From contig JAQTRE010000001.1 in assembly GCA_028711995.1 (NCBI GenBank), forward strand, positions 1 through 33,798: 33,798 nt of DNA, written 5' to 3'. Positions 9,202 through 33,798 of this stretch are shown here, one piece after another. Under the pieces are notes generated by a model. That model saw only the letters and a program-made list of their open reading frames with translations, was not told the origin of the DNA and did no database searches. The position numbers were made by a program, and so were the translations under genes. The stretch is from Dehalococcoidia bacterium (GTDB lineage Bacteria > Chloroflexota > Dehalococcoidia > SZUA-161 > SpSt-899). Position 1 is the first letter of the stretch. The number at the start of each line of letters is the position of its first letter.

Positions 9202-9236
9202 GGCCCCCGTCGGAAAAAATCCTAGAGGGCCGTTTT
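9202..9236. terminator. Bidirectional intrinsic terminator
   Basis: GGCCC (9202-9206) pairs with GGGCC (9227-9231). On the plus strand it is followed by GTTTTAG and would end the YcxB-like gene. On the minus strand it is followed by ATTTTTGTTTT, a better U-tract, and sits just after the tRNA-His 3' end, so it probably served the original tRNA gene. The loop is about 20 nt. Confidence 0.6.
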
Positions 9237-9248
9237 AGCTTCGGTTTT

Positions 9249-9298
9249 TGGGGTGGGTAGAGGGGATCGAACCCTCGATCTCCAGGGCCACAATCTGG
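9249..9298 (-). other. tRNA-His 3' half: probable prophage attachment site (attL)
   Basis: On the minus strand 50 nt reproduce the 3' half of a tRNA-His gene: anticodon arm with loop TTGTGGC (anticodon GTG, 9289-9291), a 5-nt variable loop, a T arm with perfect GAGGG/CCCTC stem, the 3' acceptor strand, discriminator C73 (a tRNA-His hallmark) and encoded CCA. The D arm is missing: only 8 nt lie between a GTGGGAG that could mimic an acceptor strand and the anticodon arm. A copy of the 3' half next to phage genes is the usual trace of tyrosine-recombinase integration. The intact tRNA-His gene and the integrase should lie at the other prophage end, beyond the right edge. Confidence 0.7.
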
Positions 9299-16524: not shown

Positions 16525-17039
16525 TCAGTCACCATTTCTGGATTTCCAGTCCGAATACTTTGCTTCGGTCTGCATAAACTGCCAAATCTTATCGACCATC
16601 AACGCTGGAGCTTTCAGATAGTCCTCGCAACTCCAGCCCATATGTTTCATAATCAGGTAGTCTCGATAGAACTCGGGGGCTACTCCCCGGCCTTGCTTGA
16701 GGAGAGACCAGAGATCGACGTCGATGTCCCCTCCTTCACCACCTGGGCCAAGAAAGGGTTCGCTTCGATTACCCCCTCGGTGATCTTGTCCACCACCATC
16801 GGATCGAGGTTCAGGATATGGGCGTTGTCGATCGGAGCCTTTGAACCATCGCCATCCTTGAACGTCCAGTCGACGACAAATGTCTTGAAGAAGTCGATCG
16901 CCCTTTGCTCCTCTGACTTCGCGCGGTTATCCATGGACGCGGCCAGCTTGAACCGCAACTCCTGATCAGCGATCTTGATCGTTACCTGTTCATCCTCAAT
17001 CGTGATCACCCTGGTCTTGTCGAATACAAATGCCTTCAT
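16525..17039 (-). CDS. Tail assembly chaperone, frameshift product (gpGT-like)
   Basis: A -1 shift at the slippery heptamer CCCTTTC (16752-16758) would fuse the first 96 residues of the gpG-like protein to 75 more residues read in the -1 frame, giving 171 aa. The extension has no stop codon until TGA at 16527-16525 and looks coding (DVDLWSLLKQGRG, PEFYRDYLIMKHMGWSCEDY, VDKIWQFMQTEAKYSDW). It ends 2 nt before the tape-measure ATG. In lambda-like and many other siphophages G and GT form a fixed ratio and load the tape measure. No frameshift product has been shown here. Confidence 0.75.
16680..17039 (-). CDS. Tail assembly chaperone (gpG-like)
   Basis: This 119-aa unshifted product is encoded immediately before the tape measure, the conserved chaperone position. 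It opens with a beta-rich region (MKAFVFDKTRVITIEDEQVT) followed by helices (EEQRAIDFFKTFVVDW; DPMVVDKITEGVIEANPF), like other siphophage chaperones. GGGAGGGAAC precedes the ATG. Its last 23 codons overlap the -1 frame of the gpGT-like product. It helps the tape measure fold and the tube to polymerise; this role is known for the family and inferred here from position. Confidence 0.75.
   Translation of the reverse strand: MKAFVFDKTRVITIEDEQVTIKIADQELRFKLAASMDNRAKSEEQRAIDFFKTFVVDWTFKDGDGSKAPIDNAHILNLDPMVVDKITEGVIEANPFLAQVVKEGTSTSISGLSSSKAGE
16752..16758 (-). promoter_or_regulatory. Programmed -1 ribosomal frameshift site CCCTTTC
   Basis: The heptamer follows the X XXY YYZ rule in the correct phase: C CCT TTC with codon 95 CCT and codon 96 TTC. 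Slipping to CCC TTT opens the 75-codon extension that ends just before the tape-measure gene. Phase was checked by counting from the ATG at 17039 (282 nt to CCT). Confidence 0.75.
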
Positions 17040-17055: not shown

Positions 17056-17100
17056 CAAAAAGGGCAACGAACAAAGTCCTGTCCTTCATCCGTTGCCCTT
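17056..17100 (-). terminator. Intrinsic terminator between gp10-like and chaperone genes
   Basis: AAGGGCAACG (17060-17069) and CGTTGCCCTT (17091-17100) form a perfect 10-bp stem around a 21-nt loop. On the minus strand it is followed by TTTTGTT. It lies in the gap between the gp10-like gene and the chaperone gene and would reduce, not abolish, transcription of downstream tail genes. Confidence 0.65.
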
Positions 17101-30245: not shown

Positions 30246-30464
30246 TCACTTCTTCTTTGACTTGGGTTCGGACGTGTCCGGCGTGCCCTCGATTTTCTCG
30301 GCAGACTCGCCATCTGCAACCGGCGTCATCACCAGATTCTGATTCTGACTCAGTCTTTTTGCTGCGGCTGGCGCAAGACTTACCTCAACAGGTTGAGTTG
30401 TAAACTTTACGCCTATGCCTACAACGGTGTATGTGCCACCCTTTGTCTTGATACTGTATTTCAC
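30246..30464 (-). CDS. Small hypothetical protein following the capsid gene
   Basis: This 72-aa protein starts at a GTG with AGGAGGCAC just upstream, after the terminator that follows the capsid gene. It has a beta-rich N-terminus (YSIKTKGGTYTVVGIGVKFT) and a charged, Pro/Ser/Lys-rich C-terminus ending in KSKKK. The position immediately after the major capsid gene suits a small head protein. Function unknown. Confidence 0.55.
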   Translation of the reverse strand: MKYSIKTKGGTYTVVGIGVKFTTQPVEVSLAPAAAKRLSQNQNLVMTPVADGESAEKIEGTPDTSEPKSKKK

Positions 30465-30479: not shown

Positions 30480-30508
30480 AAAAAGGGCTGGCTTTCTAGG
30501 CCAGCCCT
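30480..30508 (-). terminator. Intrinsic terminator after the major capsid gene
   Basis: AGGGCTGGC (30484-30492) and GCCAGCCCT (30500-30508) form a perfect 9-bp stem with a 7-nt loop. On the minus strand it is followed by TTTT. It lies between the capsid stop and the GTG of the next gene and would raise capsid mRNA relative to downstream genes. Confidence 0.75.
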
Positions 30509-30538: not shown

Positions 30539-31507
30539 CTACGCAGGGAGCCCTACGTCTTTCGCTTGGGCAATCGCGTCGGATTCTTCCTCGTTGAAGT
30601 CCCATCTGGCGGTGATGGTGAACTCGATCTGACGCTTTCTGGGCTTGCGCTCTCTTTCGAGCGTGATGTCTCTCTTCCAGCCTTGTACCAGGTTGGCCGG
30701 GTGAACGAACATCACGTCGGAAATATTGTCCACAGTCTCACGAGTTTCCGTCTTAATCTTGGGCAGCCAGATCACTGGCACGCCCTGATAGAAGACCGGC
30801 ACATCTTCGAGTAGAGCGCGATCCCCGGCAGCCGTTGCCCGGCCAGCCAGTTCATCCCGATATGCACGTTCGTACTGGAACGAACAATAGAGGCGCCACT
30901 CGTTCAGGGGCTTCGATCCGAAATGTTTGGACGGCACCGAGTTGATCAGAGCCTTGAAGACATCGGATACGGCACTGGGAGCAGCGCAGTTGTAGTCAGT
31001 GATATGCCCTGCCAGGCCAGTCAGCCAGCCAGTATGGGTAGGCACTGACAAAACCGCATCGGCCCCACTGGCCGCAGGATTGGCGTACATGCCAACCTCT
31101 TCGAAGTCTGCTGAAGCACGCCCGCCAATGAGATCCAGCAGGGTGCTTTCGAAATTCTCTTTCTCGATATTGTCTTCGAGAGTCGAGTAGAAGAGGTTTA
31201 CCGCGATGATGAACTCTTTGGCCACGAGTTGCCTCTGCTCGGTCTGATAGCCAGTGGTATCTGTGTGCTCGGTTCCCTCTGCTACTGGCTTCTGCAGGAC
31301 GCGGTTACCGAAGACGATCTTGTCGATATTCTTCGTGTCGCTCGTCATCTCCAGCGTTCTGACCTCTCTCATCAACTTCGAGTTGTCGATCGCTGCTCTG
31401 ATAAACCGGTCTGCCTGTTGGGGCAGGAGTTTAGCACTGCCGATGCCCTCAACCCAACCCTTCATAACTTGGTCTATTCGTTCAAGCAGTTGTGCTTCAG
31501 TAAACAT
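30539..31507 (-). CDS. Major capsid protein (HK97 fold, XkdG-like)
   Basis: This 322-aa protein forms the head shell. It lies directly after the protease/scaffold gene. Typical segments are ADRFIRAAIDNSKLMREVRT, TEQRQLVAKEFIIAVNLFYS with ENIEKENFESTLLDLIGGRA (E-loop/spine region), then ADFEEVGMYANPAA and LLEDVPVFYQGVPVIWLPKI near the end, as in capsid proteins of the PBSX XkdG type. AGGAGGTGTTGAA precedes the ATG, a strong site fitting an abundant protein. No N-terminal scaffold extension is present, which agrees with the scaffold being carried by the upstream gene. Confidence 0.85.
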   Translation of the reverse strand: MFTEAQLLERIDQVMKGWVEGIGSAKLLPQQADRFIRAAIDNSKLMREVRTLEMTSDTKNIDKIVFGNRVLQKPVAEGTEHTDTTGYQTEQRQLVAKEFIIAVNLFYSTLEDNIEKENFESTLLDLIGGRASADFEEVGMYANPAASGADAVLSVPTHTGWLTGLAGHITDYNCAAPSAVSDVFKALINSVPSKHFGSKPLNEWRLYCSFQYERAYRDELAGRATAAGDRALLEDVPVFYQGVPVIWLPKIKTETRETVDNISDVMFVHPANLVQGWKRDITLERERKPRKRQIEFTITARWDFNEEESDAIAQAKDVGLPA

Positions 31508-31541: not shown

Positions 31542-32876
31542 CTATTTTCTCGGTCCGCCCATCGTGTTGACCCACGATGGCTTGCCGGATTCTTCATGCT
31601 TATCGGATTTCTCCGCCGACTCAACGCCGAGGGCGTTAGACGAGCGGGTCATCTTCTTCAGCGCGGCCTCCAGAGTCTCAACGCGCTTGGCCACAGCCTC
31701 GGCAGTCTCACCAGACTCTTTGACCTTCAGGGTAACCTGCTCAGCCGTTGCCACGCCCTTCAAGGACGTGACGATAGCGGTCAGAACTTCGCTCTGCGAC
31801 TTGACCACAACCATCAGGTCTGCAAGTGCCTTATTCAAACCCTCGACGTCTGCCTTGGTGGCAGTCTCCACTTTGGGAGGAGTTGTCTCGCCTCCCTCTT
31901 TCTTGGCCACAGTTTTCGTATCTTCCACTGCAACACCTCCCTGTTCGTTAATAATCGGCGAGTTCTTCTTCCCGCGCTCAGCGATGAACCCGGCAAGACC
32001 ATCTCGCTTGATCACATAGTATTGAGCTGCCTTGACAGCAGGCTTATCGACAAGAGCCACGGCTACTACATCCCATTCATCGCCCTTCATAAGCCGAAGG
32101 TCTTTGGCTTTAGCCACGGTATGGGACTTCGATGCCGCCTGGAGCATAGTCTTCCGGACGCCAAAGATGGAGAATCCGGTGAACTTGCCGCTCTTGACCG
32201 CCACCCAGGAATCGTCGTCATTGACCTTCACGGTGATCCACCAAGCACCGGCAGGAACTTCACCGCCATACCACTTGTACGTCTTCTGGCCGCCTTCTTC
32301 CTCGGTTGGAAAATAGACGCTCTCGACCGGGACGGCCACCCGGATGAACGTGTGCATCTCATCAATAACCTGGTAATTCTCCATGAACTTCAGGGCAACT
32401 GCTCGAATATCTTCCGGTCTCCAGAAGTCATTCTGCGAATCCACCTCACCGGCGACCAGCACCAAACCGCCTACTGTCCGCTCCTCCTCGGAACAAACCT
32501 TCAACTCCACGTCTTTGGTGAACAGAGCTTGAAACTCTGAGTCAGTGGACTTCTGGGTTTGCTGACTATCGAAGAGCCGAAGGCCGGATCTGAGCCAGGA
32601 AACGATCTTGCTCTCGTTGGCGCTGGAGGCAACAAAGGTCTCTTGGACTTTGACAGGAGCTGCAAAGGCGATTACACCGGCATCGTCCTCGACATATGCG
32701 TGCTTGTAGAGGCCTTGCCGAGTTTCGGCAATGAGGTAACCGGGGTAGATGTCTCTGATAAAGCCCTCGAATATCTCACCGTTGGGGCTCTTGCTATTGA
32801 GCATGTCATAGAACGCTTCGGAGATCCGGCGAGCCTTTTGCTGATAGCTTTCGTCTTTGACTGTCACATGATTCAC
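31542..32876 (-). CDS. Prohead serine protease (XkdF-like) with C-terminal scaffold-like region
   Basis: This 444-aa protein joins an XkdF/S78-type phage protease (residues about 120-290: LVLVAGEVDSQNDFWRPEDI, YQVIDEMHTFIRVAVPVESV, GAWWITVKVNDDDSWVAVK and GKFTGFSIFGVRK) to a charged helical C-terminus (EGLNKALADLMVVVKSQSEV; AEAVAKRVETLEAALKKMTR) that looks like a scaffold. It would guide shell assembly and be cleaved during maturation. The frame is open to a TTG at 32897, but GGGGAGG sits 5 nt before the GTG at 32876, so I use that start. Active-site residues were not mapped individually. Confidence 0.8.
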   Translation of the reverse strand: MNHVTVKDESYQQKARRISEAFYDMLNSKSPNGEIFEGFIRDIYPGYLIAETRQGLYKHAYVEDDAGVIAFAAPVKVQETFVASSANESKIVSWLRSGLRLFDSQQTQKSTDSEFQALFTKDVELKVCSEEERTVGGLVLVAGEVDSQNDFWRPEDIRAVALKFMENYQVIDEMHTFIRVAVPVESVYFPTEEEGGQKTYKWYGGEVPAGAWWITVKVNDDDSWVAVKSGKFTGFSIFGVRKTMLQAASKSHTVAKAKDLRLMKGDEWDVVAVALVDKPAVKAAQYYVIKRDGLAGFIAERGKKNSPIINEQGGVAVEDTKTVAKKEGGETTPPKVETATKADVEGLNKALADLMVVVKSQSEVLTAIVTSLKGVATAEQVTLKVKESGETAEAVAKRVETLEAALKKMTRSSNALGVESAEKSDKHEESGKPSWVNTMGGPRK

Positions 32877-32895
32877 GCTTGCCTCCCCGAATAAC

Positions 32896-32939
32896 AAAAA
32901 AGGACAAGTCCAGAGCGTTTGCTCTGATTCCTTGTCCTT
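32896..32939 (-). terminator. Strong intrinsic terminator between tRNA and head genes
   Basis: AAGGACAAG (32900-32908) pairs with CTTGTCCTT (32931-32939) and an inner stem CAGAGC-GTTT-GCTCTG lies between them. On the minus strand it is followed by TTTTTTGTT. It lies between the tRNA gene and the protease gene on the path of transcription from the 33081-33109 promoter, so head-gene expression would need read-through. Confidence 0.8.
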
Positions 32940-32972
32940 CCTTACTCCCTTGAGAGTCAGCTATTCAGTTTT

Positions 32973-33047
32973 TGGTAGCGCGGGTTGGATTCGAACCAAC
33001 GACCTCCGGCTTATGAGGCCAGCGAGCGGCCACTGCTCCACCACGCA
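32973..33047 (-). tRNA. tRNA-Met (CAT), initiator-like
   Basis: The 75-nt sequence folds as a cloverleaf. D stem is GAGC/GCTC, anticodon stem CTGGC/GCCGG with loop CTCATAA (anticodon CAT), variable loop AGGTC, T stem GTTGG/CCAAC, discriminator A73 and encoded CCA. The A11:U24 pair and the lack of a Watson-Crick pair at 1:72 (U-U) are features of bacterial initiator tRNAs. The anticodon stem has two of the three usual consecutive G:C pairs. D-loop position 21 is C rather than A. A tRNA-Ile reading a modified CAT is less likely given A11:U24. Confidence 0.85.
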
Positions 33048-33080
33048 CCGTTCCCCACAACGACATCCCTAATTGGCCGA

Positions 33081-33109
33081 ATTATAACACTATAGTAGAT
33101 CACTGTCAA
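33081..33109 (-). promoter_or_regulatory. Perfect consensus sigma70-type promoter
   Basis: On the minus strand TTGACA (33104-33109) and TATAAT (33081-33086) are separated by exactly 17 bp. Transcription would start near 33074, about 27 nt before the tRNA-Met, and continue toward the terminator and the head genes. Every consensus position matches. No ribosome binding site or gene lies between the promoter and the tRNA. Confidence 0.85.
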
Positions 33110-33241: not shown

Positions 33242-33790
33242 TCATGGTATAGCCACATCCCGGAATATTCTTCGTCCGTCGATATCAAGACAAATCTGGT
33301 TGGCGCCTTTGTTGATGTAGTTGGTTGCGACACGCACGTCGCTTTCCCACCGGTTGCCAAGAAGGTCCTTTAGTTTTTGAATCTTCACAAGGTCGGCATT
33401 TCGTTTTCTGGTCAGATCCTGCTCCGTGGTGACGCCCCAAACCCACACTTCGACGTCTTTGTCATCCTTGAGGACGACCGATACGACGTCATATTCGTTC
33501 TCAACTGTATCGTCCTCGTTCAAGAGCTTGAGGTTTGGCAACGTGACACGGAAGGACACTTTTTGAGGTGGATGATTCAGAGCTTCTAGCAACGCATAAC
33601 ACTCAAGATCTTTGGCGGCGGTCGCCGCACCAGCAACAACCTGCCGAGCAAGTAGCTGCTGCACCTGAGTCGCAAGGTCGGCGATCCTCTGTGTCGGTCG
33701 CGGACCAAAGTACACCGTTTGCCAACTCAGCAATTGATCCCACAGAATCTCGGCGGCCTGTTCCTGCGTGGTCTCCAGATTCTTGCGCAC
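33242..33790 (-). CDS. Hypothetical protein, possibly 5' truncated by the window edge
   Basis: At least 182 aa, read from a GTG at 33790; the frame is open to the edge (GAA GCC before the GTG), so the true start may lie outside. Residues 1-80 are helical (LETTQEQAAEILWDQLLSWQ; IADLATQVQQLLARQ). The second half alternates strands and helices (NEYDVVSVVLKDDKDVEVWV, then KIQKLKDLLGNRWESDVRV), a pattern that recalls degenerate PD-(D/E)XK nuclease folds, but the ExK signature is not intact (EVW). It is upstream of the promoter-tRNA segment on the same strand. Function unknown. Confidence 0.55.
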   Translation of the reverse strand: MRKNLETTQEQAAEILWDQLLSWQTVYFGPRPTQRIADLATQVQQLLARQVVAGAATAAKDLECYALLEALNHPPQKVSFRVTLPNLKLLNEDDTVENEYDVVSVVLKDDKDVEVWVWGVTTEQDLTRKRNADLVKIQKLKDLLGNRWESDVRVATNYINKGANQICLDIDGRRIFRDVAIP

Positions 33791-33798
33791 GGCTTCAT

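Follow-up and report, generated by a model that had tools for sequence, protein, structure and literature searches.

A stand-alone, initiator-class tRNA gene carried by a prophage between a restriction cassette and a head maturation protease gene

Results

The window, that is, the whole stretch of 33,798 nucleotides that was analysed, forms the start of contig C1 and contains one end of a prophage. An attL-like repeat of 74 bp at 9225..9298 (no strand assigned) is 96% identical to a copy at C1:68068-68141, which overlaps the 3'-terminal 50 nt of a tRNA-His gene and is adjoined by an integrase gene (C1:67380-67934). The paired repeats and the integrase delimit a prophage of ~59 kb integrated at tRNA-His. 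Within it, a promoter, a tRNA gene and a terminator-like hairpin follow one another on the minus strand. Upstream of the tRNA on the same strand lies a type I restriction cassette (C1:33242-42708; L001:3242-12708), in the order GHKL-ATPase protein, EcoAI-type HsdR, HsdM, HsdS and a 695-aa protein; the last of these (whole gene C1:33242-35329) enters the window with its C-terminal part (33242..33796, minus strand). Farther upstream, outside the window and still on the same strand, are the genes for Mu-F, portal and the large and small terminase subunits. Downstream of the tRNA are a head maturation protease (Peptidase_S78_2; 31542..32876, minus strand; Pfam 1.7e-24, PHROG 1.4e-35), a capsid-family virion protein (phrog_1623; 30539..31507, minus strand; 2.4e-64) and tail genes, so that the cassette sits between the Mu-F and protease genes of the head module. 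The prophage carries a second tRNA gene, Trp(CCA), at C1:59160-59233 (L002:11160-11233), with neither a strong promoter nor a terminator of its own.

The sigma-70 promoter of the tRNA unit (33081..33109, minus strand) reads TTGACA, a 17-nt spacer with a TG extension, and TATAAT. It scores 12/12 against the consensus (33109..33081) and is the sole site scoring at least 11/12 in 68.2 kb. Direct reading of the sequence reveals AT-rich DNA upstream and a GC-rich discriminator, TCGGCC; TG extensions and GC-rich discriminators are often found in stable-RNA promoters. At the other end of the unit, an intrinsic-terminator-like hairpin (about 32896..32944, minus strand; -26.9 kcal/mol, z -6.85) is followed by at least 5 T after the stem, and none of 200 shuffles of 32944-32896 was equally stable.

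Between them lies a tRNA(CAU) gene of 75 nt with an encoded 3' CCA (32973..33047, minus strand), detected by ARAGORN and by the Rfam tRNA model (56.2 bits, E 1e-9, at 33047..32973). With its CAU anticodon and unpaired 1:72 (U1:U72), it belongs with the bacterial initiators. It also has A11:U24, G2:C71 and C3:G70, the determinants of formylation (PMC7949028), and G29:C41 and G30:C40, the two pairs of initiator tRNA contacted by A1339/G1338 of 16S rRNA (PMC11497404). Pair 31:39 is C:G, inverted from the canonical G31:C39. We know of no comparable 16S rRNA contact described for 31:39. High conservation of the three GC pairs is described for initiator tRNAs across all domains of life. Because the third GC pair belongs to the defining signature of initiators (PMC7949028) and is here C:G, we file the prophage tRNA as an initiator-class variant and not as a canonical member. 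An elongator Met or Ile2 tRNA is ruled out by R11:Y24 and the unpaired 1:72, and the host has separate CAT tRNAs (on C94 and C33). The original prediction had described a perfect -35/-10 promoter with 17-bp spacing, a tRNA with the initiator traits A11:U24 and unpaired 1:72, and a long hairpin with a U-tract; all three elements are borne out, with two corrections, one to the inverted 31:39 pair, which had escaped it, and one to the 'first' head gene, discussed below. The DNA sequence itself establishes the promoter, the tRNA, the terminator, the borders of the prophage and the order of its genes.

The host has one initiator gene of its own (C11:37923-37997), directly 3' of what reads, from its flank, as the end of a 23S rRNA gene. 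The prophage tRNA is 87% identical to it, with 10 differences in 75 positions. Five pairs changed from host to prophage (Sprinzl numbering): 1:72 from C:U to U:U, 5:68 from G:C to U:G, 27:43 from U:A to C:G, 28:42 from C:G to U:G, and 31:39 from G:C to C:G. Despite 8 stem substitutions, 20 of 21 pairs are standard in the prophage tRNA, the same number as in the host; pairing was kept this well in only 4 of 10,000 random trials (P = 4e-4). By this comparison of sequences, the fold has been kept by selection, and a decayed copy of the host gene is ruled out. The prophage tRNA and the initiators of the host lineage have U72 and a 7-nt D-loop in common, from which we infer that it probably came from a host of that lineage. 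It is not the host gene at the attachment site, since attB is tRNA-His and the prophage tRNA lies ~24 kb inside the prophage.

The anticodon stem was then compared between viruses and cells. In a sample of viral contigs, the initiator core was constrained while the anticodon stem could vary; a first pattern required a D-loop of at least 8 nt, which excludes the type of the window and the host, and a second used a 7-nt loop. All viral counts are of the matches listed. Those of the second pattern comprised 112 distinct tRNAs, with 24 GGG/CCC, 44 AGG/CCU and 18 UGG/CCA stems, the rest being mixed. Among the same listed matches, 109 had G:C and 3 had G:U at 30:40, pair 29:41 was changed in 78/112, pair 31:39 was other than G:C in 21/112, and pair 1:72 was not Watson-Crick in 92/112. 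The longer-D-loop sample gave 23 of 116 listed matches without G31:C39. Thus viral initiator-like tRNAs (L292-L411, L040-L159) commonly lack the GGG:CCC stem and keep G30:C40. The 251 genomes of the host's phylum had 172 canonical stems and 16 AGG/CCU, and the sole changed base 31 was that of the prophage tRNA itself. Pair 31:39 was therefore other than G:C in 21/112 listed viral tRNAs versus 0/~188 matched cellular genes of this phylum (Fisher P ~3e-10, the counts being of sequences and not of independent events). Cellular DNA contaminating the viral contigs would add canonical forms and so weaken the contrast.

The cellular control for 31:39 consists of this one phylum and one total count over species genomes: among 84,980 of the latter, 30 stretches kept pairs 29-30 and changed 31, a raw total and not a frequency. 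One of the 30 (L438, a contig of 11,667 bases) agrees both in length and in match position with L045, which is listed as viral. Four Azambacteria MAGs (L431, L433, L445, L448) carry U31:G39 initiator-like tRNAs, each in a similar short cluster of tRNAs, and this may be a genuine cellular variant in that lineage. The A29:U41 (AGG:CCU) initiator is itself a natural cellular variant, found in the 16 of 251 phylum genomes above (L413-L420), which rules out AGG:CCU as a virus-only form. No account of the stem pattern of viral initiator-like tRNAs was found in the open-access literature, subscription papers lying outside the search.

The frequent loss of GGG:CCC in viral initiator-like tRNAs may reflect relaxed constraint or nuclease evasion, the latter having been proposed in print for phage tRNAs as a whole (PMC10264068). 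Applied to this locus, the prophage tRNA would replace a host initiator cut by a VapC-type anticodon-stem-loop nuclease. Enteric VapC cuts tRNA-fMet between A38 and C39 (PMC4105405), and the change falls exactly there: the putative host cut site is A38^C39, and the prophage tRNA has G39 paired to C31. The host genome contains five PIN-domain (VapC-type) matches, and the prophage Trp(CCA) is likewise changed at 31:39 (a C:U mismatch versus U:A in the host). Codon compensation cannot account for the prophage Met and Trp tRNAs, since these amino acids have one codon each. However, no host nuclease is known to cut the host initiator, and phages are reported to have mostly refrained from carrying tRNA-fMet where it is a VapC target (PMC10264068). 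Moreover, most of the listed viral changes fall at 29:41 and not at 31:39; as 29:41 lies away from the cut site, relaxed constraint on all but G30:C40 fits the viral pattern as well or better. We regard nuclease evasion as an unlikely explanation of the prophage gene.

The terminator bears on a different explanation, that of the original prediction, in which the unit was the leader of the late genes on the plan of lambda pR'-tR'. Under this scheme the promoter would drive the protease, capsid and tail genes after antitermination, and the tRNA would be the default short transcript. The span from promoter to terminator is indeed short, ~180 nt. Direct reading places the protease ribosome-binding site (RBS), GGGGAGG, at 32882-32888 and its GTG start at 32876, the listed TTG at 32897 falling inside the terminator; because the RBS begins ~8 nt past the U-tract and this interval has no promoter, any transcript that serves the protease gene has to pass the terminator. 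This arrangement is not confined to the tRNA unit. With a cut-off of -18 kcal/mol or below and a U-tract, the prophage has five strong terminator-like hairpins on its coding strand and none on the opposite strand, and four of the five immediately precede an RBS with its start codon (C1:50273, 32900, 30484 and 17061). Besides the hairpin of the tRNA unit, these are 30484..30508 (minus strand; dG -21.7, z -4.30) before the gene at 30246-30464, 17061..17100 (minus strand; dG -25.7, z -5.44) before a tail-region gene at 16680-17039, and C1:50273 (L002:2270-2307, prophage coding strand). These three gene starts have neither a tRNA nor a strong promoter. One of the strong terminators precedes the gene for a phage protein in which a DAM-like methylase is fused to a GNAT-like domain (L002:864-2252).

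With four terminators directly before an RBS, read-through appears to be a general need of the operon; either processive antitermination or leaky terminators that tune gene dosage may provide it. A scan of 20 early-region proteins, in which divergent antiterminators could be missed, recognised none of the Q/N type, and the neighbour of the tRNA unit is the restriction cassette, not an antiterminator gene. Nor does the late operon open with the unit: genes for terminase, portal and Mu-F precede it on the same strand, and the operon starts (terS/terL) ~14.6 kb upstream, so the protease is not the first head gene. What survives of the earlier interpretation is the initiator class, the location on a phage and the crossing of the terminator for protease expression; the late-unit leader and the lambda plan find no support, and we consider them improbable.

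The unit and its neighbouring cassette appear instead to be an addition to the head module. In four related viral loci (L006-L009), distant relatives with ~30% identity in the capsid, portal or Mu-F lies at most ~2.5 kb from the capsid gene and there is no tRNA; given this compactness, the 10-kb cassette and the tRNA are best read as an insertion. A search of genome contigs with the protease found no relative, the downstream protease occurred in 0 of the other 98 relatives searched, and no close sequenced relative of the prophage was found. Consistent with the claim that the tRNA is phage-borne, its flanks were absent from the relatives searched, in which the tRNA body alone matched. It is very improbable that the tRNA is part of the restriction cassette, alongside the 695-aa protein, in a defence or addiction unit with, for example, a protected or decoy target: the tRNA adjoins HsdR-HsdM-HsdS-695 aa on the same strand, but it has its own promoter, the association was not seen to recur, and the 695-aa protein, weakly similar to HD-domain hydrolases (E 1e-3), could be assigned to no family in our searches, had no relative among plasmid, phage and viral collections, and was matched once, weakly, across 300 genomes of the phylum.

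Discussion

Taken together, the data point to a moron-like, stand-alone gene for an initiator-class tRNA in a temperate phage, placed under its own strong promoter between a restriction cassette and the protease gene; we consider this reading probable. The promoter is of a constitutive type, from which the tRNA would be transcribed both in the lysogen and during phage growth. The transcript would end at the terminator, and late phage transcripts would read through it, as through its three sisters; the terminator may in fact belong to the phage operon, where these sisters occur, rather than to the tRNA. Once made, the tRNA is predicted to receive methionine from MetRS, to be formylated and to function at the P site, the unpaired 1:72 and the 16S-contacted pairs 29:41 and 30:40 being kept and the third pair, 31:39, changed. 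Its P-site efficiency may be lower, since the third GC pair of the initiator signature is not kept. The prophage would in this way add a second initiator gene to a one-initiator host, and extra initiator supply from a constitutive unit is the plainest reading of its function. Phage translation might conceivably benefit from initiator tRNA that is supplied steadily or resists nucleases.

A broader view, which we hold to be doubtful, is that phage initiator tRNAs form a distinct functional class that has shed GGG:CCC and kept only G30:C40. Such tRNAs could still serve at the P site yet avoid host nucleases or quality control that recognise the canonical stem, and the prophage copy would serve lysogen and phage alike. 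Phage tRNA-fMet is already known, whereas the stem pattern is what our search of the open-access literature did not find. That viruses commonly break the first and third pairs and keep the second is a natural experiment on the requirements of initiation, and suggests a candidate reason why phages carry tRNAs for amino acids with one codon, for which codon compensation is no explanation.

The locus can be set beside four known systems. Like lambda pR'-tR', it has a strong promoter, a short transcript and a terminator ahead of phage genes, but it does not open the late operon, no antiterminator was found among the early proteins scanned, and the transcript is a tRNA. With bacterial initiator tRNA-fMet it has in common CAU, the unpaired 1:72, G2:C71, C3:G70, A11:U24, G29:C41, G30:C40 and the loop CUCAUAA; it differs in having C:G at 31:39, in being prophage-borne and in its own consensus promoter, whereas the host gene follows 23S rRNA. 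Initiator-class tRNAs are also carried by Stenotrophomonas phage vB_Sm_QDWS359 and reported in Erwinia jumbo phage pEa_SNUABM_47 (PMC9686651), while the gene described here stands alone, with its promoter and terminator, in an integrated prophage. Among the viral matches listed, a solitary gene with a promoter of at least 10/12 and a terminator occurred in 2 of 292 cases, both GGG:CCC. In layout the locus resembles prophage morons, extra genes flanked by conserved phage genes and equipped with a promoter and a terminator of their own: the unit has both elements and is absent from the same place in the distantly related phages L006-L009. It departs from them in that its product is a tRNA and its terminator has sisters in the operon.
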